A DNA stretch of 39,488 bases from Cytophagales bacterium. GTDB lineage: Bacteria > Bacteroidota > Bacteroidia > Cytophagales > Cytophagaceae. Positions 9,446 through 17,791 of this stretch are shown in pieces (position 1 is the first letter of the stretch; every line of letters starts with the position of its first letter). Under the pieces are notes generated by a model that worked only from the letters and a program-made list of their open reading frames with translations, had not been told where the DNA came from and did no database searches. Position numbers and translations under genes: made by a program. Location: contig JAAFID010000013.1 in NCBI GenBank assembly GCA_013297765.1, positions 1-39,488 of the forward strand, read 5' to 3'.

Positions 9446-9493
9446 TTTTTAATCTCCAAATATATGTTTAAACATATATTTGGAGATTAAAAA
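9446..9493. repeat. Perfect 48-bp palindrome
   Basis: Bases 9446-9469 are the exact reverse complement of 9470-9493 with no spacer; the centre is GTTTAAAC. Arms read outward through AATCTCCAAATATAT. It lies in the gap between a terminator (9369-9405) and the cytochrome-like gene at 9581. It is too AT-rich and lacks the shape of an ordinary terminator. Confidence 0.95.
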
Positions 9494-9580: not shown

Positions 9581-10435
9581 ATGAAAATTAAATTCTCTAA
9601 AATCATAACTACTACAGCAGGGTGTGGCTTACTATTAGCCATGTGTGCCGCTGTATTGAAAGACGATGGCATAGCAGGTCGAACTGGTGCTCCTGGTGAA
9701 ACAAACTGTACCAATTGCCACAAAGCCGCAGTGAATTCTGGCGGCGGCTCTATTTCAATAAGTTCAAATATCCCTAAAGATGGATATAAACCAAATATAG
9801 TTTATAAAATGACTGTGACTATCTCACAAACAGGAGTTTCACTATTTGGCTTAGGTGTCGAGGCGTTAAATGACAACAATAGCAATGCTGGCACACTCAT
9901 CGTAACTAATTCGGGAGAAACAAAACTGCTTACCTCGGCAGGTAAAACCAATGTAGTACATCAATTGAACGGCGGCCAAGTATCTACCCCTGGGGCAAAA
10001 ACATTTACCTTTGACTGGAAAGCACCAGCAACAGATATAGGCAACGTAACATTTTATGCCGCAGGATTAGCGGCTAATGGAGATACCAAGGACGATGCTG
10101 GCGATAAAACATATACAACAAAATTCACTGTATCTGCTGCTTCTGTCGCTAGTGTATTGGAAAACAAAGAAATATCTGTTACCAATTTAGCTCTATTTCC
10201 TAATCCCTCGCAAGACAATGTAAATTTGAGATATGAATTAAAAAAAGATGGATTAGTAACCATAGAATTATATAACGCTAATGGAGATTTATTAAATACG
10301 CTTTTCTCAGATATTAAAAATGCAGGCTCATACACAGAAAATTATAATCTTAAAGCGAACTATGCATCTGGAATATATTTTATCAAAATAAAAACTGACA
10401 ATCAAATTACTGGTCACACCCTAATTCTTGAATAA
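9581..10435 (+). CDS. Secreted CxxCH protein with choice-of-anchor V-like domain and T9SS type A sorting domain
   Basis: This 284-residue protein has an N-terminal signal segment (about 5-25). A GRTGAPGETNCTNCH segment follows, with a CxxCH haem-attachment motif at about residues 43-47, then a reelin-like/choice-of-anchor V beta domain. The last roughly 75 residues, starting at LALFPNPSQDNV and ending in GHTLILE, are a type A sorting domain for the type IX secretion system. It is therefore expected to be exported across the outer membrane and attached to the surface or released. CxxCH suggests a covalently bound haem, although only one motif is present and no distal Met is obvious. It heads a run of same-strand genes (10528, 10914, 11810). 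A possible -7 element TATTCTTG lies at 9523-9530. Confidence 0.85.
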   Translation: MKIKFSKIITTTAGCGLLLAMCAAVLKDDGIAGRTGAPGETNCTNCHKAAVNSGGGSISISSNIPKDGYKPNIVYKMTVTISQTGVSLFGLGVEALNDNNSNAGTLIVTNSGETKLLTSAGKTNVVHQLNGGQVSTPGAKTFTFDWKAPATDIGNVTFYAAGLAANGDTKDDAGDKTYTTKFTVSAASVASVLENKEISVTNLALFPNPSQDNVNLRYELKKDGLVTIELYNANGDLLNTLFSDIKNAGSYTENYNLKANYASGIYFIKIKTDNQITGHTLILE

Positions 10436-10446
10436 AAATTACTTAG

Positions 10447-10490
10447 GCATTTCTAATCTTAAAAAATTATAGGTTAGAAATGCTACTATT
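10447..10490 (+). terminator. Hairpin after the sorting-domain gene
   Basis: A 13-bp stem with one G.U pair (10447-10459 with 10471-10483, 11-base AT loop) is followed by TACTATTTTTG. The T-run is short and interrupted, so termination may be partial. A -7-like TATTTTTG (10487-10494) overlaps its end and could start transcription of the next gene. Confidence 0.6.
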
Positions 10491-10527
10491 TTTGCCTTCA
10501 ATTTAAAGCAACTTATAAAATGGTTTT

Positions 10528-10893
10528 ATGAATATTAAAATAATACTGATGATTTTACTAGCTATGGCAATGACTTATTGTACTTTCAACAAGTACGACG
10601 ACTTGCACCCGAAGCAAAGTATAAATTGCGATACAAGTATAGTGATATCGTATGCCAAAACAATAGCTCCACTGATGGAAAAACATTGCAATAATTGTCA
10701 CAATGTAAATGATGCCGCCACTATCGGAGGCGGTACTTTCTTAGACAACTACGACGATGTCGCAAATAACATCGAAGATGTGTTGAAAAGTATTTCTGGG
10801 AAAAACTATAAAATGCCTAAAAATGGCCCCAAGCTAGACACTTGTGACATATATGCTATTCAAAAATGGATGAACAAAAAAATGCCATTATAA
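10528..10893 (+). CDS. Small monohaem c-type cytochrome-like lipoprotein or periplasmic protein
   Basis: This 121-residue protein has an N-terminal hydrophobic export segment ending at MTYC, which could be a weak lipobox with Cys18. One haem motif CNNCH follows (about residues 54-58), and a YKMPKNGPKL segment near residue 93 supplies a likely distal Met ligand. This is the layout of short Bacteroidota cytochrome c domains found alone or fused to other electron-transfer modules. It is 92 bases behind the surface CxxCH protein and 20 bases before the DUF5777 gene start, so it probably shares a transcript with the latter. Electron donor and acceptor are not known. Confidence 0.82.
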   Translation: MNIKIILMILLAMAMTYCTFNKYDDLHPKQSINCDTSIVISYAKTIAPLMEKHCNNCHNVNDAATIGGGTFLDNYDDVANNIEDVLKSISGKNYKMPKNGPKLDTCDIYAIQKWMNKKMPL

Positions 10894-10913
10894 AATTATA
10901 TTTAATCATTCTT

Positions 10914-11810
10914 ATGCAGAAAAATAATATTGCGTTAATCATTGGCTTTTGTTTATCTACACTACAAGTAACAGCACAAGACGACTTACTAGAGTCTCTT
11001 AATAATGAGCAATCAAAAAAGAAAAGTCTCACCATTGCATCGTTCAAAGGTACTAGGCTTATCAATTCTCCCACACTTGAGGTTGTAGGTCGCAGAGCAC
11101 TTGATTTTCGCATTGCACATCGTTTTGGACCATTCAACAGTGGATATCAAAATTTTTGGGGAATAGACGGGCCTGCAACCATAAAACTCTCTTTTGAATA
11201 TAGTTTTGATGGTAGATTTATGTTTGGCATAGGCAGAAGCTCGGCTCAAAAACTTTATGATGGATTTTTGAAGTATCGTTTATTGAGACAAACGACAAAA
11301 AACGAAATGCCTATTAGCGTTACTTTATATGCCTCTGCAAATATTAACGGTCAAAAGCAAGAATCGCTTCCCTACTACCATAATTTTACAGGCAGAATGT
11401 CTTATGCCTATCAAATCATTATAGGTAGAAAATTCAACGAACACCTAACACTTCAGGTAAGCCCAACAATTATTCATTACAACTTGGTAGAAAAATCTAC
11501 AGATAAAAATACCACTATGGCAGTAATAGGTGCAGGAAGATTAAAATTCACAAGAAGTATGGCACTTACTTTTGAATATGGTATGAGGCTGAAAGGAATG
11601 ACCAATGATTTCTCTAGTTATTTCAACACCGCTAGTTTGGGCATAGATATAGAAACTGGCGGACATATATTTCAAATGTTTGTAACCAACTCAACAGGAA
11701 TGAACGAGGTACAATACATCCCCTATACCAATACCTCTTGGAAAGATGGGGGTATAAGGCTTGGCTTTAATGTTTCTAGAGTATTTGCAATTGGAAATAG
11801 AAAAAAATAA
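10914..11810 (+). CDS. DUF5777-family outer-membrane beta-barrel protein
   Basis: From the ATG at 10914 the protein is 298 residues. A signal peptide ends near VTAQDD, and the rest is barrel-like with the DUF5777 features I recognise: IAHRFGPFNSG, a GIGRSS segment, YDGFLKYRLLRQ, and a C-terminal DIETGGHIFQMFVTNSTGMNE. An upstream in-frame ATG (10866) overlaps the cytochrome gene and would spoil the signal peptide, so it is rejected. In other Bacteroidota this family is found near YceI proteins and cytochromes, as here. Its stop overlaps the YceI start by one base (TAATG), so the two are translationally coupled. The function of the family is undetermined. Confidence 0.85.
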   Translation: MQKNNIALIIGFCLSTLQVTAQDDLLESLNNEQSKKKSLTIASFKGTRLINSPTLEVVGRRALDFRIAHRFGPFNSGYQNFWGIDGPATIKLSFEYSFDGRFMFGIGRSSAQKLYDGFLKYRLLRQTTKNEMPISVTLYASANINGQKQESLPYYHNFTGRMSYAYQIIIGRKFNEHLTLQVSPTIIHYNLVEKSTDKNTTMAVIGAGRLKFTRSMALTFEYGMRLKGMTNDFSSYFNTASLGIDIETGGHIFQMFVTNSTGMNEVQYIPYTNTSWKDGGIRLGFNVSRVFAIGNRKK

Positions 11811-12364
11811 TGAAAATGATATATAAAACTACACTTACTCTTTTATTGGCCTCTTCACTTTCGCTCAACTATTTGATAGGTCAGGTGGTAAAAAGCGAAT
11901 CGGCATCGGTCAATTTTTTATCCAAAACACCCTTGGAAGATATTGATGCCACTAGCAAAGAAGTAGTATCCGTTATCAATACCGAGAAAAATCAGATTGC
12001 CTTTTCCATTCCCAACAAAAGTTTCAAATTTGATAATTCATTGATGGAAGAGCATTTCAATGAAAAATATATGGAGAGTGAAAAATTTCCCAATTCTACT
12101 TTCTCTGGAACAATAAATGACGAAATAGATTATAAGCAAGACACTGATAAAAAGATTACTGTAACAGGAAAATTAAAAATTCACGGGGTAGAAAAAGTAG
12201 TCACTCTACCAGGATTTATAAGAATTGCCAACGGGAAATTAAATGTTCAAACCCAATTCATGGTAAAAACTGCCGATTATAAAATAGACATTCCTACACT
12301 AGTATTTGAAAAAATAGCCCAAGAAATAAAAGTTACAGTAAGTGGGATTTATCCTTTAAAATAA
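11810..12364 (+). CDS. YceI-family periplasmic lipocalin-like protein
   Basis: This 184-residue exported protein has a signal peptide to about residue 24 (cleavage near LIGQ). A YceI-type barrel follows, with typical segments FSIPNKSFKFDN, MEEHFNEKYMESEKFPNSTFSG and the C-terminal KITVTGKLKIHGVEK. Characterised YceI proteins bind polyisoprenoid-type lipids. It is coupled to the DUF5777 gene by a one-base start/stop overlap and follows a cytochrome gene, so a role in handling a quinone-like or isoprenoid molecule at the envelope is possible but inferred. The gene converges on purM with only 16 bases between the two stops and no visible terminator. Confidence 0.92.
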   Translation: MKMIYKTTLTLLLASSLSLNYLIGQVVKSESASVNFLSKTPLEDIDATSKEVVSVINTEKNQIAFSIPNKSFKFDNSLMEEHFNEKYMESEKFPNSTFSGTINDEIDYKQDTDKKITVTGKLKIHGVEKVVTLPGFIRIANGKLNVQTQFMVKTADYKIDIPTLVFEKIAQEIKVTVSGIYPLK

Positions 12365-12380
12365 ATTAGCGACTAAATCA

Positions 12381-13547
12381 TTAATATTCAAATACTCCAT
12401 TTACACTTTTTATGGTCAATCGCTTAGTTTCACAGGCTTCTACCCTACCAATTATTTGTGCTGATACCCCGAAAGAGTTAGCAATTTGAATTAAATCAGT
12501 GGCATATTTTCCATCAATATATATTTCCAATCGATGCCCCATATTAAACACCTTGTACATTTCTTGCCAGTCTGTTTGACTTTGCTCATGAATGATACGG
12601 AATAATGGAGGAATTTCGAATAAATTATCCTTTATCACGTGCAACTTTTCTATAAAGTGCAATACTTTGGTTTGTGCCCCTCCGCTGCAATGTACTACTC
12701 CACCTATTAGGCTTCTATACTCTTTCAATATTACCTGCATAATGGGTGCATAAGTGCGGGTAGGCGATAGCACCAGCTTTCCCATATCTATTTCAGGCTT
12801 GTAAGGGCATGTATCGGTAAGGCTATATTTGCCCGAATAAACCAATTCTGTAGGTACGCTAGGGTCGTAGCTTTCTGGATATGTACCAGATAATTGATGG
12901 TTAAACACATCATGCCTAGCCGAGGTAAGACCATTGCTACCCATTCCACCATTGTAAGATTGCTCGTATGTAGCCTGGCCATAAGACGCAAAACCAACGA
13001 TAACGTGACCTGCAGCAATTTTTTCATTGGTAATCACTTCACTTCTTTTCATACGGGCGGCAACGGTGCTATCTACAATAATGGTACGCACCAAATCGCC
13101 GACATCAGCTGTTTCGCCTCCTGTACTGTATATTTGCATACCGTGATCTCTCAGCATTTGCAATACTTCTTCTGTACCGTTAATTATTGCTGAAATTACC
13201 TCGCCAGGAACTAATCTTTTATTGCGTCCTATGGTAGATGATAGCAAAATATTATCGGTACAGCCCACACACAGCAAATCATCGGTATTCATAATAACAG
13301 CATCTTGAGCTATGCCTCGCCATACAGACATATCACCTGTTTCTTTCCAGTAAAGATAAGCCAACGAAGATTTTGTACCCGCCCCATCGGCGTGCATAAT
13401 GTTGCAATAATCTTTATCTCCACCCAATACATCGGGTGTTATTTTGCAAAAAGCAGTTGAAAAAATTCCTTTGTCTATATTTTTGATGGCTTGATGTACA
13501 TCTTCTTTAGAGGCCGATACGCCACGTTGTTGGTATCTTTCTGACAT
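12381..13547 (-). CDS. purM: Phosphoribosylformylglycinamidine cyclo-ligase (AIR synthetase)
   Basis: PurM closes the imidazole ring to form AIR in purine synthesis, using ATP. The protein begins MSERYQQRGVSASKEDVH and continues with the HADGAGTKSS segment that forms the nucleotide site. A GGETADVGDLVRT segment lies in the middle and GHRLEIYI near the C-terminus. The 388-residue length matches the longer Bacteroidota form. The ATG at 13547 is preferred over 13556 (three codons longer) because the family starts at MS-RY-QRGVSA. It stands alone on the minus strand, converging with the YceI gene. Confidence 0.95.
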   Translation of the reverse strand: MSERYQQRGVSASKEDVHQAIKNIDKGIFSTAFCKITPDVLGGDKDYCNIMHADGAGTKSSLAYLYWKETGDMSVWRGIAQDAVIMNTDDLLCVGCTDNILLSSTIGRNKRLVPGEVISAIINGTEEVLQMLRDHGMQIYSTGGETADVGDLVRTIIVDSTVAARMKRSEVITNEKIAAGHVIVGFASYGQATYEQSYNGGMGSNGLTSARHDVFNHQLSGTYPESYDPSVPTELVYSGKYSLTDTCPYKPEIDMGKLVLSPTRTYAPIMQVILKEYRSLIGGVVHCSGGAQTKVLHFIEKLHVIKDNLFEIPPLFRIIHEQSQTDWQEMYKVFNMGHRLEIYIDGKYATDLIQIANSFGVSAQIIGRVEACETKRLTIKSVNGVFEY

Positions 13548-13636
13548 ATTATTCAAGGGAGATAGAGGTTGTAAAGTTAAAAAAGAATTAATGTATTGAA
13601 TAGTTTATTTCCTAATTCAACCCTAGTTTTTTAGCA

Positions 13637-13744: not shown

Positions 13745-14089
13745 ATGTTTATTGCTAAACGGAGTGCAAAAATAGTTTAAGATTTTCAAAAAGCAAACTT
13801 TATTTCCCACTTTTTTAAAAATATTTTTTACACTCAATATTAAAAAATATAATCCAGTACATATCAATCAAAAAAAGATACTTTTTGACTCGTAATTTAA
13901 AAAAAACATAATGACATTATAATTTTAAATTCAACTAATTAAAATACATTTATTTGCAAAAAATAAATAAATTAAAGAAAATAACAAACGACATAATGGC
14001 TTGTTTGCTTACCAAAAATTGAATTGGCACAAATTTTACTAAATAGCAGGTACAAATTAAAAATTCTTCAACAAAACTTAGAAAAAATT
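13745..14089. other. AT-rich noncoding gap between tRNA-Asn and hsp20
   Basis: Besides the tRNA-Asn promoter, this 345-base gap is very AT-rich with no coding sign. Near its right end, TTGGCAC (14024-14030) and TTAC (14036-14039) have the spacing of a sigma-54 -24/-12 promoter, with one departure (A instead of G at the -12 GC). It points toward hsp20. Confidence 0.5.
13767..13797 (-). promoter_or_regulatory. Bacteroidota-type promoter for tRNA-Asn
   Basis: On the minus strand TTTG (13794-13797), 19 bases, then TATTTTTG (13767-13774): a full consensus match. It is directly followed by CACTCCGTTT, an element almost identical to that after the tRNA-Tyr/tuf promoter. The start is expected about 13760, some 15 bases before the tRNA. 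Confidence 0.82.
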
Positions 14090-14539
14090 ATGACACTCGT
14101 AGCCTCAAACCCAAAATTGTACAAAGATTTTGTACCTACATCATTTGCGGAATTAGTAGAGAATTTCTTCAAAGAAAATTCAGAAACCAAAACTACTTCT
14201 AATTCTGTTTTAAACTTTGTACCCAAAGTGGACATTGCCGAAACCGAAAAGCAATATGAAATAAGTTTACAAATTGCTGGCATTGACAAAGAAGACATTA
14301 AAATAGATTTTCAAGATGGAAAACTTACCATCTCTGGAGAAAGAAAATTTGAGAAAAAAGAAGAGGGCAAAAAATTTCATAAAATAGAAACTCAATACGG
14401 CTCCTTTCACCGGTCTTTTGTATTGCCTGAGCATACCAACCATGAAGCCATTGAGGCGACATTCAACAATGGTATCCTAAACATTGTTGTACCAAAAGAC
14501 GAGAAGAAAGTAACTAAAGCCACAATTGCAATTAAATAA
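14090..14539 (+). CDS. Hsp20/alpha-crystallin family small heat-shock protein
   Basis: This 149-residue small heat-shock protein is a chaperone that holds unfolding proteins in soluble oligomers. After a variable N-terminal arm (residues 1-45), the alpha-crystallin domain spans about 46-140. Features are VPKVDIAETEKQYEI, the DGKLTISGER strand and the conserved A-x-x-x-n-G-I-L motif (ATFNNGILNIVVPK), then a short Lys-rich tail ending ATIAIK with an IxI-type motif. The ATG at 14090 gives the usual family start MTLV; a TTG 22 codons upstream lies inside the putative promoter and is rejected. Its downstream partner is an HtrA protease, a sensible protein-quality pairing. Confidence 0.93.
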   Translation: MTLVASNPKLYKDFVPTSFAELVENFFKENSETKTTSNSVLNFVPKVDIAETEKQYEISLQIAGIDKEDIKIDFQDGKLTISGERKFEKKEEGKKFHKIETQYGSFHRSFVLPEHTNHEAIEATFNNGILNIVVPKDEKKVTKATIAIK

Positions 14540-14544
14540 CCAAA

Positions 14545-14575
14545 GAAGTCGTGGCAAGAAAATTGCCACGACTTC
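14545..14575 (+). terminator. Perfect 13-bp hairpin between hsp20 and the HtrA gene
   Basis: GAAGTCGTGGCAA pairs perfectly with TTGCCACGACTTC around a GAAAA loop, six bases after the hsp20 stop. There is no T-run afterwards, so it may be an mRNA-end stabiliser or a processing/partial termination site, not a simple terminator. Confidence 0.6.
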
Positions 14576-14647
14576 AAATATCACAAGAGCAAATTCGTTT
14601 ACAAGGAAATCTTCTAAAAAAACATTCCACCTTAAACAATTCTAAAT

Positions 14648-16147
14648 ATGACCAACACAAAGCAATTTTTATCTGTAGTAGCGGCATCAATATTGGGAGG
14701 AACAGCTACTTTATTTGGTTACAAAACATTTATAGAACAACCCAATCTACAATCATTCAATCAAAATCAGCCTGCTTATTTTACCAAATTTGAGTACGAT
14801 ACCGCAAAGTCGGTAGTACCCGAAGGACTCAATTTTATTCATGCTTCTGATATTGTGAGGCCCAGTGTGGTACACATTCGTACTTATTACGAAAATACAA
14901 CTGCTTCGTCACAAGGCACTCCATTTGATGAGATGCTTAAAGAATTTTATGGCGATCGTATGCCTCAAGACCGCAATCACCGTGGTGGTGGTGCCCCCCA
15001 AGAAGCTTCGGGTTCAGGAGTTATACTATCTAATGATGGATATATTGCAACCAACAACCACGTGATAGACAAAGCCGACAAAATAGAAGTGGTGCTGAAT
15101 GACAAGCGAAGCTACATCGCTAAATTAATTGGCACTGACCCTACCACAGATTTGGCATTATTAAAAATAGAAGAAAAAGGATTGCCTTTTGTAAAATATG
15201 GTAGTTCAGATAATTTGAGAGTAGGCGAATGGGTGCTGGCCGTAGGAAATCCTTTTAACCTTAACTCTACCGTTACAGCGGGTATAGTAAGTGCCAAAGG
15301 TAGAAATATCAACATATTGCGTGACAAAGATAATATGGCAATTGAGTCCTTTATACAAACTGATGCCGTAGTAAACCCAGGTAATAGTGGGGGTGCATTG
15401 GTAAATCTTAGAGGAGAATTAATTGGTATCAATACCGCCATAGCCAGCCCTACAGGCTCATACACTGGTTACTCATTTGCAGTACCAGTTACGTTGGTAG
15501 AGAAAGTAATGGAAGATTTGCTAAAACATGGCCAAGTGCAGCGTGCATTGTTAGGAATATCCATTATAGACCTCAATGCTGCGATGGCCAAGGAAAAAGG
15601 TATTAAAGATTTTGTTCATGGTATTTACGTGGGCGGTGTAAATGTAGGTAGTGCTGCGGCTGCGGCGGGACTTAAAGAAGGCGACGTAATCACTCATGTA
15701 AATGGTTTTCCCGTCAATTCGGCTTCAGAGCTACAAGAAATAGTTGCTAGAAATCGCCCTGGTGACAAAGTAAAAATAAAATATACCCGAGGCGAAAAAG
15801 TAAATGAAGTAGATGCTATATTAAAAAATAAGAGTGGTAATACTGATGTGGTAAAAAGAGAAGATAATGCGGTAAAATCGATTTTGGGTGCAGAATTTAT
15901 TGCTCCTAGTAAAAAAGATTTGGCAAAATTAAAAATTGATGGAGGAGCTATGGTACAACAAATTGGTGCTGGTAAAATGCGTGAAGCAGGCGTACCCAAT
16001 GGTTTTATCATTACCTCTATCGACAAAATCAAAATAGATTCTCCCATTCAGGCACAAGAATTGCTATCAAAAGATAGCAAAGAAGGCCATTTAATAGAAG
16101 GATACACCTTGAACGGTGAACATCGCTTTTATGGAATAGGATGGTAA
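14648..16147 (+). CDS. HtrA/DegP-family periplasmic serine protease (Do family)
   Basis: This 499-residue protease degrades misfolded envelope proteins. An N-terminal membrane or signal segment (about 8-27) is followed by a trypsin-like domain with the full triad: His138 in TNNHVI, Asp168 in TTDLALLKI and Ser247 in GNSGGAL. Two PDZ domains follow (about 285-390 and 410-495); the first has the LLGIS-type carboxylate-binding loop. Architecture and length fit the DegP/DegQ group; choosing between them is not possible from sequence. It lies 108 bases behind hsp20, separated by a stable hairpin, and has its own terminator. Confidence 0.95.
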   Translation: MTNTKQFLSVVAASILGGTATLFGYKTFIEQPNLQSFNQNQPAYFTKFEYDTAKSVVPEGLNFIHASDIVRPSVVHIRTYYENTTASSQGTPFDEMLKEFYGDRMPQDRNHRGGGAPQEASGSGVILSNDGYIATNNHVIDKADKIEVVLNDKRSYIAKLIGTDPTTDLALLKIEEKGLPFVKYGSSDNLRVGEWVLAVGNPFNLNSTVTAGIVSAKGRNINILRDKDNMAIESFIQTDAVVNPGNSGGALVNLRGELIGINTAIASPTGSYTGYSFAVPVTLVEKVMEDLLKHGQVQRALLGISIIDLNAAMAKEKGIKDFVHGIYVGGVNVGSAAAAAGLKEGDVITHVNGFPVNSASELQEIVARNRPGDKVKIKYTRGEKVNEVDAILKNKSGNTDVVKREDNAVKSILGAEFIAPSKKDLAKLKIDGGAMVQQIGAGKMREAGVPNGFIITSIDKIKIDSPIQAQELLSKDSKEGHLIEGYTLNGEHRFYGIGW

Positions 16148-16170
16148 TAGTTGTTTAGTTGTGAATGTTG

Positions 16171-16204
16171 CCTGTCTGCACGTAAGTGTAGGCAGGTTTT
16201 TTTA
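16171..16204 (+). terminator. Terminator of the HtrA gene
   Basis: An 11-bp stem with G.U pairs (16171-16181 with 16186-16196, loop GTAA) is followed by eight T. It lies between the HtrA stop and the aldehyde dehydrogenase start. Confidence 0.88.
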
Positions 16205-16240
16205 TTTATATTCACATATAATTTCCATTTCCCTATTTCT

Positions 16241-17791
16241 ATGAGCAATTTCACAGACACAAAATCTATCTTCAAGCAATTATTTATTAAAGATATAAAT
16301 TCCAGCTGTAGCACTGGGCGTATTTTTGCAGCTATTGATAAAAAAGAAATCTACCAAGTAATATCTCCTATTGATGGCGAAAAGCTGGCATCAGTCAATT
16401 GGGTTTCTTTAAAAAATTATGATAAAGTGATTGCGACCGCACAAGAAGGTTTTCTTTTTTGGCGTACCCTTCCTGCACCTGCACGTGGCGAGGTGGTAAG
16501 GCAAATTGGTAATGCACTTCGTGAAAATAAACACGCTTTAGGGGCATTGGTTTCTTACGAATGTGGCAAAATATTGCAAGAAGGGCTGGGCGAAGTACAG
16601 GAAATGATTGACATCTGCGATTTTGCAGTAGGGCTGTCACGACAATTGCACGGTAATACCATGCACTCTGAGCGTCCAGCACATCGTATGTATGATCAAT
16701 ATCATCCGTTGGGAATAGTAGGTATTATTTCTGCATTTAATTTTCCAGTGGCAGTATGGGCATGGAATGCCATGATAGCAGCCGTATGTGGCAATGTAAG
16801 CGTATGGAAACCATCAGAAAAAACACCACTGACTGCAATTGCTTGCCAGCAAATTATCCAAAAAGTATTGGAAGCAAACAATGTTCCTGAGGGGGTTTTT
16901 AGCTACGTGATAGGCAACGCCAACATTGGTGCAGCTATGGCCAATGACCATCGTGTTGCTTTAGTTTCTGCCACAGGCTCTACACTTATGGGCAAGAAAG
17001 TAGGTGCTGCGGTAATGGCTAGGCTAGGGAAATCATTATTAGAATTAGGCGGCAATAATGCCATCATCATTACTCCATCTGCAAACTTAGATTTGGCCAT
17101 TAGAGCGGTAGTATTTGGGGCTGTGGGCACTTGCGGGCAACGATGCACCACCACCAGAAGATTAATAGTACATGAATCAATGTATAAACAGGTAAAAGAA
17201 AAATTGATCAAAATCTATGAAAAGCTGCCCATAGGAAATCCGCTAGAAAAAAATACGCTAGTTGGTCCTATGATTGATATTGCAGCAGTAAACCAATTTT
17301 TAAATGCACTTAAAGCAGTTGCAAAAGAGGGGGGCAAAATAGCCATAGGCGGCAAGGTTTTAGCAGGCAAAAAATACAAGGGCGGAAACTATGTAAGCCC
17401 AGCCATAGTAGAGGCAGAGAATCACTACGCAACCGTTCAGGCAGAAACATTTGCTCCTATTTTATATTTGATAAAATACAAAGGCAATATTTTAGAAGCT
17501 ATAAAACTTCAAAACGATGTAAAGCAAGGATTGTCATCAGCCATATTTTCAAATGATATTATAGAAACAGAAACATTTCTCTCCCATCTAGGCTCTGATT
17601 GTGGGATAGCCAATGTAAATATAGGCACATCTGGTGCTGAAATAGGTGGTGCCTTCGGTGGTGAAAAAGAAACAGGCGGTGGCCGAGAATCAGGCTCCGA
17701 TGCCTGGAAAGCCTACATGCGAAGACAAACAAATACCATTAATTACAGCCCCAATTTGCCATTAGCACAGGGGATTCAGTTTGATATTTGA
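16241..17791 (+). CDS. ALDH7-family aldehyde dehydrogenase (aminoadipate semialdehyde / piperideine-6-carboxylate dehydrogenase-like)
   Basis: This 516-residue enzyme oxidises an aldehyde with NAD. Catalytic residues are visible: Asn167 in FNFPVAVW, Glu268 in LELGGNNA and Cys302 in GQRCTTTRR. The C-terminal signature IGGAFGGEKETGGGRESG and the GQRCTT context mark the ALDH7 (antiquitin) subfamily, whose known members oxidise 2-aminoadipate-6-semialdehyde in lysine breakdown. The ATG at 16241 follows the HtrA terminator; the frame is open further upstream through that terminator, which is not coding. No lysine-degradation partner is adjacent, although a class III aminotransferase lies at 34986. 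Family is firm, substrate is inferred. Confidence 0.93.
   Translation: MSNFTDTKSIFKQLFIKDINSSCSTGRIFAAIDKKEIYQVISPIDGEKLASVNWVSLKNYDKVIATAQEGFLFWRTLPAPARGEVVRQIGNALRENKHALGALVSYECGKILQEGLGEVQEMIDICDFAVGLSRQLHGNTMHSERPAHRMYDQYHPLGIVGIISAFNFPVAVWAWNAMIAAVCGNVSVWKPSEKTPLTAIACQQIIQKVLEANNVPEGVFSYVIGNANIGAAMANDHRVALVSATGSTLMGKKVGAAVMARLGKSLLELGGNNAIIITPSANLDLAIRAVVFGAVGTCGQRCTTTRRLIVHESMYKQVKEKLIKIYEKLPIGNPLEKNTLVGPMIDIAAVNQFLNALKAVAKEGGKIAIGGKVLAGKKYKGGNYVSPAIVEAENHYATVQAETFAPILYLIKYKGNILEAIKLQNDVKQGLSSAIFSNDIIETETFLSHLGSDCGIANVNIGTSGAEIGGAFGGEKETGGGRESGSDAWKAYMRRQTNTINYSPNLPLAQGIQFDI

Follow-up and report, generated by a model that had tools for sequence, protein, structure and literature searches.

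Outer-membrane barrels encoded together with c-type cytochromes are familiar from the MtrCAB-type porin-cytochrome conduits. A different pairing is found in the BcnA-LcoA-PsrA system of Burkholderia, which detoxifies lipid peroxyl radicals: here the gene of a YceI lipocalin stands beside that of a haem electron carrier, BcnA and the linked cytochrome b561 limit lipid peroxidation, and the known ligands of the YceI family are isoprenoids and ubiquinone-8 (PMC9113575). In Cellvibrio, Cbp2D and Cbp2E carry a YceI-like X158 domain in the same protein as domains of c-type cytochromes (PMC8981238), and COG4313 (Phenol_MetA_deg) proteins, such as Pput2725, form barrels of 12 strands whose lumen contains an N-terminal segment, and have been implicated in the uptake of hydrophobic molecules (PMC4493636). 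Here, we analyzed a 39,488-nucleotide stretch of DNA (the window) from a Cytophagales bacterium (GenBank assembly GCA_013297765.1, contig JAAFID010000013.1), which carries consecutive genes for a predicted cytochrome c lipoprotein, a DUF5777 outer-membrane protein, and a YceI-family lipocalin. These three genes are the cassette proper, and we see an even chance that their products form one Bacteroidota envelope redox module for the one-electron chemistry of an outer-membrane isoprenoid, quinone, or lipid, likely keeping it reduced.

The cassette resembles each of these systems in part. BcnA is the closest solved structure to a model of the window's YceI protein; however, its partner is an inner-membrane cytochrome b561 (PMC9113575), whereas the partners here are a lipoprotein cytochrome c, a Rieske protein, or a cupredoxin, together with an outer-membrane barrel. 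No cytochrome b561 was detected among four genes of the window (the three above and the gene preceding them), the rest of the genome not having been searched for it. Unlike the cassette, Cbp2D and Cbp2E are secreted carbohydrate-binding multidomain proteins for polysaccharide oxidation, and no outer-membrane barrel goes with them (PMC8981238). DUF5777 shares with Pput2725 a predicted 12-stranded barrel, a similar length, and a segment before strand 1 (PMC4493636), but it has no PF13557 match and is tied to redox genes. Compared with MtrCAB-type conduits, the cassette has a monohaem carrier with one haem motif and a barrel of 12 strands in place of a multihaem cytochrome in a wide barrel. Among open-licence PubMed Central (PMC) papers, we found no description of a cassette that unites three such parts, a barrel in the outer membrane among them, and whose carriers are exchangeable, and no paper linking YceI with Rieske proteins, cytochromes, and the outer membrane; BcnA and Cbp2D were the only relevant precedents that we followed. 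Thus, the pairing of YceI with a cytochrome is already known, and the exchangeable carriers and the outer-membrane barrel are what seems to be new.

Results

All three cassette genes are on the forward strand. The predicted monohaem c-type cytochrome lipoprotein (positions 10528..10893; 121 amino acids) has a lipobox Cys at residue 18, the motif CNNCH (C54-x2-C57-H58), to which a haem would be attached, and Met96-Pro97, in which the Met would be the distal ligand; its PF13442 match of 25.5 bits lies just below the gathering score of 27. The DUF5777 gene (10914..11810) encodes a PF19089 protein (298.5 bits; gathering score, 23.1), for which ATG 10914 is a more likely start than 10866 because it yields a signal peptide. 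The YceI-family lipocalin (11810..12364; PF04264, 56.1 bits; gathering score, 23.7) is predicted to be secreted, and the next gene, 12381-13556, lies on the opposite strand. The first-pass annotation of this DNA had described four consecutive same-strand genes as an envelope redox cassette. Four same-strand open reading frames do lie at about the places that it gave, but the start of DUF5777 is better moved, and the first of the four, encoding a choice-of-anchor V protein, is no longer grouped with the others.

We surveyed the linkage of these genes across Bacteroidota. DUF5777 was present in 115 of the 296 genomes of a sample of the phylum and in 17 of the 19 belonging to the window's family. 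Apart from the window, 160 strong matches (150 bits or more; counted by hand) were found, of which 140 were fetched with about 6 kb of flanking sequence where the contig allowed and 20 were left out irrespective of their context; together with the window, these make up a first set of 141 loci. Open reading frames (ORFs) were called mechanically, and the profiles used to label neighbors were seeded from the window's own proteins or their relatives. At 117 of the 141 loci, a YceI gene was no more than three genes away from DUF5777 and on its strand, and at 95 it was directly adjacent; a gene of the window's cytochrome family lay equally close at 109 (115 when either strand was counted), and both were present at 93. 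By chance, a YceI gene is expected in about 0.8% of random 7-kb stretches (72 genomes, with a mean of 5.0 YceI genes). A second set, consisting of the 80 best named loci and overlapping the first (L210 and L189, for example, are the same locus), had YceI at 71, a haem c protein at 58, and a Rieske protein at 16 loci within four genes. Besides, a cytochrome profile (alignment A6, from the window and 19 loci of the second set) gave 59 matches in frames of at most 300 amino acids in 30 genomes, and 47 of these were within 4 kb of DUF5777, a proportion biased toward linkage since the seeds had been found via DUF5777. Median intergenic gaps in the cassette were 3 nt between YceI and DUF5777, 9 nt between the cytochrome and YceI, and 6.5 nt between the cytochrome and DUF5777. 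We confirmed that the three genes are linked beyond chance, as the first-pass annotation had suggested for these families in Bacteroidota. It had also noticed the single base, A11810, that is common to the DUF5777 stop and the YceI ATG, and had read a fixed stoichiometry from it; that reading is rejected because gene order within the cassette differs between lineages, and the overlap indicates coupling at most.

All of the 20 relatives aligned with the window's cytochrome share its lipobox Cys, its haem-motif residues, and its Met-Pro residues. Among 236 cytochromes, C-x(2-7)-CH was found in 235, with Met-Pro no more than 70 residues downstream in 232, which supports the distal Met that had been thought likely. 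Genes for cytochrome c assembly are present in the window's genome. At loci without the cytochrome, a Rieske protein often occupied the same place; in Daejeonella, Dyadobacter, and Runella, among others, the order Rieske-DUF5777-YceI matches that of the window except for the carrier, and a plastocyanin-like protein was found at two loci (L131 and L147). Over both sets (221 loci), the carriers were haem c at 175, Rieske at 26, cupredoxin at 2, and other at 18, where haem c includes opposite-strand cytochromes and the labels of four loci (L056, L131, L147, and L192) were assigned manually from the proteins. A FastTree phylogeny was built from DUF5777 (220 distinct sequences); on it, haem c and Rieske are separated by five changes or more, or by six with the cupredoxins. 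A lipobox-like signal was carried by 195 of the 236 cytochromes, 24 of the 27 Rieske proteins, and both cupredoxins, as compared with 161 of 1287 other neighbors and 13 of 210 YceI proteins; the cluster-binding pattern searched for was present in 20 of the 27 Rieske proteins. The folds of these carriers are unrelated to one another, one-electron chemistry is common to all three, and most of the proteins are lipoproteins. In these swaps, together with the lipoprotein signals, we see the strongest support for electron transfer at a membrane surface as the conserved function.

A gene fusion points in the same direction. At one locus (L173), a single 421-amino-acid frame has an N-terminal cytochrome domain (C-x4-CH, Met-Pro) fused to DUF5777 at residues 171 to 418. 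Pfam names no cytochrome in this protein, and the domain was recovered by a profile of the window's cytochrome family built without L173 (E value of 4e-6, with the database size set to 2000). Because the termini of outer-membrane barrels are expected to be periplasmic, the fusion would place the cytochrome on the periplasmic side. This is a single case, and the only relative searched in the family of L173 has a shorter match. The envelope redox function proposed in the first-pass annotation is supported, and the carrier replacement and the fusion strengthen it.

The AlphaFold2 model of DUF5777 (79 sequences) has 12 strands, with a mean predicted local distance difference test score (pLDDT) of 91 and a predicted template modelling score of 0.84, and an ordered segment (residues 41 to 61; pLDDT of 92 to 97) precedes the first strand. 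This supports the earlier suggestion that DUF5777 is the outer-membrane part. By VIA-align, the model was similar to KdgM (Z score of 17.8 over 167 residues), FapF (17.7), NanC (17.4), and COG4313 Pput2725 (PDB 4rl8; 16.7 over 213 residues, with a root mean square deviation [rmsd] of 3.9), and with such near ties the modelled fold does not by itself pick out COG4313. Unlike the fold search, the comparison of profiles does discriminate: hhalign of DUF5777 against Bacteroidota PF13557 (COG4313) proteins gave a probability of 95.5% (E value of 1.6e-8, 162 columns), which became 96.0 and 96.3% when random halves were used and 87.3% with alignment A4, as against 0.1% for reversed alignments, 20% for another outer-membrane barrel family, and 4% for YceI. 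Since the window's DUF5777 had no PF13557 match in a Pfam search at E values up to 1, it is a remote relative of COG4313 and not a member. No direct sequence match to solved structures was obtained at E values up to 1, and we found no paper naming DUF5777 among the open-licence PMC papers, in keeping with its earlier description as a family of undescribed function.

The relationship to channels implicated in hydrophobic uptake (PMC4493636), and the genes for extracytoplasmic function (ECF) sigma factors near some DUF5777 loci, would also suit a different role, in which DUF5777 imports an external hydrophobic or aromatic compound, YceI binds it, and the carrier feeds electrons to an oxidizing enzyme encoded elsewhere, so that the compound undergoes redox processing in the periplasm. 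We consider this quite unlikely, since no degradative enzyme recurred beside the cassette in the neighbor survey and the cassette, in more than a third of the genomes sampled, is too widespread for a single niche substrate. Two residues of the barrel, His-69 (H69) and His-251 (H251), are invariant in alignment A4, and CusB-like or heavy-metal genes lie near a few loci, which would accord with metal acquisition, detoxification, or assembly, with DUF5777 as the channel, the two histidines binding the metal, and the carrier setting its redox state. However, metal genes are rare beside the cassette, both histidines look outward facing by residue alternation (judged by eye), and the YceI proteins studied so far bind lipids (PMC9113575), so that a role in metal handling seems very improbable.

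The AlphaFold2 model of the YceI protein (65 sequences, pLDDT of 91.6) is closest to BcnA (5ixh; Z score of 20.1, rmsd of 2.2, 151 residues) and also resembles the polyisoprenoid-binding domain 2x34 (Z score of 18.4).

Six DUF5777 loci that lack YceI (L136, L139, L143, L144, L150, and L157) carry an NrfD/DsrP-like membrane protein, with a DsrO-like 4Fe-4S protein, further cytochromes, and mostly an EB_dh haem-b protein in the representatives examined. Because DsrP- and QrcD-like proteins are menaquinone linked in known systems, an inner-membrane quinone module seems to stand in for the lipocalin at these loci. Small in number and perhaps all of one lineage, the six loci possibly encode an electron-transfer complex of the envelope that is linked to menaquinone. 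They are the main support for an electron conduit, running from the menaquinone pool through the lipoprotein carrier and a cofactor or quinone held by DUF5777 to external acceptors, or in reverse, and in some strains via the choice-of-anchor CxxCH protein. Such a conduit is unlikely in our judgment, as the carriers are monohaem and provide no multihaem wire, for which the small modelled barrel would in any case be too narrow.

The choice-of-anchor V protein (9581..10435, forward strand) has a CTNCH motif and matches NF041895 (101 bits; cut-off, 42) and the type IX secretion system (T9SS) domain PF18962 (45 bits; cut-off, 27). Together with SprA, which is encoded in the window's genome in two pieces on two contigs, the PF18962 match identifies it as a T9SS type A cargo, as had been proposed from the DNA alone. 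SprA would also serve the conduit just described, but the surface CxxCH protein is rarely linked to the cassette: a choice-of-anchor V neighbor was found at 4 of the 141 loci of the first set and 2 of the 80 of the second, one locus being common to both. Moreover, at the 30 top loci of the family (L276-L305), the motif was CxCH in 23, CxxCH in 3, CxxxxCH in 2, and unreadable in 2, so that CxCH and not CxxCH prevails in 23 of the 28 readable members. The gene thus has no general linkage to DUF5777. The 92-bp gap between it and the cytochrome gene contains a terminator-like 14-bp hairpin (10446..10484, forward strand; -17 kcal/mol, fold z score of -5.2), and therefore the transcription unit of the cassette probably begins at the cytochrome, with the choice-of-anchor gene probably in a separate unit. 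Its rarity beside DUF5777 and this gap rule it out as a core member, and it is better regarded as accessory. The same genome has another choice-of-anchor V protein with CxxCH, whose gene directly precedes that of a further cytochrome lipoprotein from the family of the cassette cytochrome (L195, contig C265), with no DUF5777 or YceI within that locus; a looser tie of choice-of-anchor V proteins to this cytochrome family is possible from this neighborhood.

Several further features were observed in and around the cassette. A perfect 48-nt palindrome, terminator-like or regulatory and assigned to no strand, lies upstream of the choice-of-anchor gene (9446..9493); it has 24-nt arms, no spacer, and a fold z score of -10.8, and occurs only once in the genome. 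Repeatedly, the cassette also includes a gene for a small membrane protein that matches the tRNA_anti-like OB fold, PF12869 (L121:5478-5864 and relatives; 31 neighbor matches in the first set and 40 in the second). In some lineages, an ECF sigma factor (40 neighbor matches) and an OMP_b-brl_2 protein (19) are encoded just upstream of the cassette (L163:2940-4742 and relatives), which suggests control of the cassette by envelope signals. Downstream in the window, past the opposite-strand gene, Hsp20-like, HtrA-like, and aldehyde dehydrogenase-like ORFs (14024-17791), named by reading the sequence only, lie on the same strand as the cassette.

Discussion

The evidence taken together is consistent with a module in which the secreted lipocalin YceI would bind a hydrophobic molecule; an isoprenoid quinone, for example menaquinone, is the most likely candidate, or else some other lipid of the membrane. 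The molecule held by YceI would be reduced or oxidized by a lipid-anchored carrier of single electrons, which is the predicted His/Met monohaem cytochrome in the window and a Rieske or plastocyanin-like protein elsewhere, and DUF5777, as a COG4313-type 12-stranded barrel, might pass the molecule or dock the carrier. The purpose that we think most likely is to keep an outer-membrane quinone or lipid reduced, which would make the module a Bacteroidota counterpart of the BcnA-LcoA protection against lipid radicals.

Several observations weigh against this redox module. The cassette itself encodes no inner-membrane electron donor. No YceI gene lies within three genes on either strand at 19 of the 141 loci, among them the six with an NrfD/DsrP-like protein, 18 of the 221 loci have no recognized carrier, and the loci are not phylogenetically independent. 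Furthermore, the cassette YceI proteins form a subfamily of their own relative to unlinked YceI (3 changes on the tree, as compared with 18.4 when shuffled), and their ligand may differ from that of known YceI proteins. The tree was built from the window's YceI, 70 of 198 cassette YceI drawn at random, and 20 high-scoring YceI encoded elsewhere in the same genomes; these 20 are thus biased toward canonical members, and two rows, L339 (probably a wrong-strand frame) and L353 (long and odd), were both kept.

A broader role, as a phylum-level outer-membrane redox conduit that works without a multihaem wire, can also be imagined: the lipid-anchored carrier would exchange electrons with a quinone or isoprenoid that the lipocalin and the DUF5777 barrel move between the periplasm, on one side, and the outer leaflet or the cell exterior, on the other. 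We hold this to be doubtful.

Electron transfer at the bacterial outer membrane has so far mostly meant multihaem conduits. The carrier swaps and the fusion make a hitherto unannotated barrel a testable outer-membrane redox component, and the redox module proposed here could account for the protection or recharging of outer-membrane lipids and quinones in aerobic Bacteroidota.

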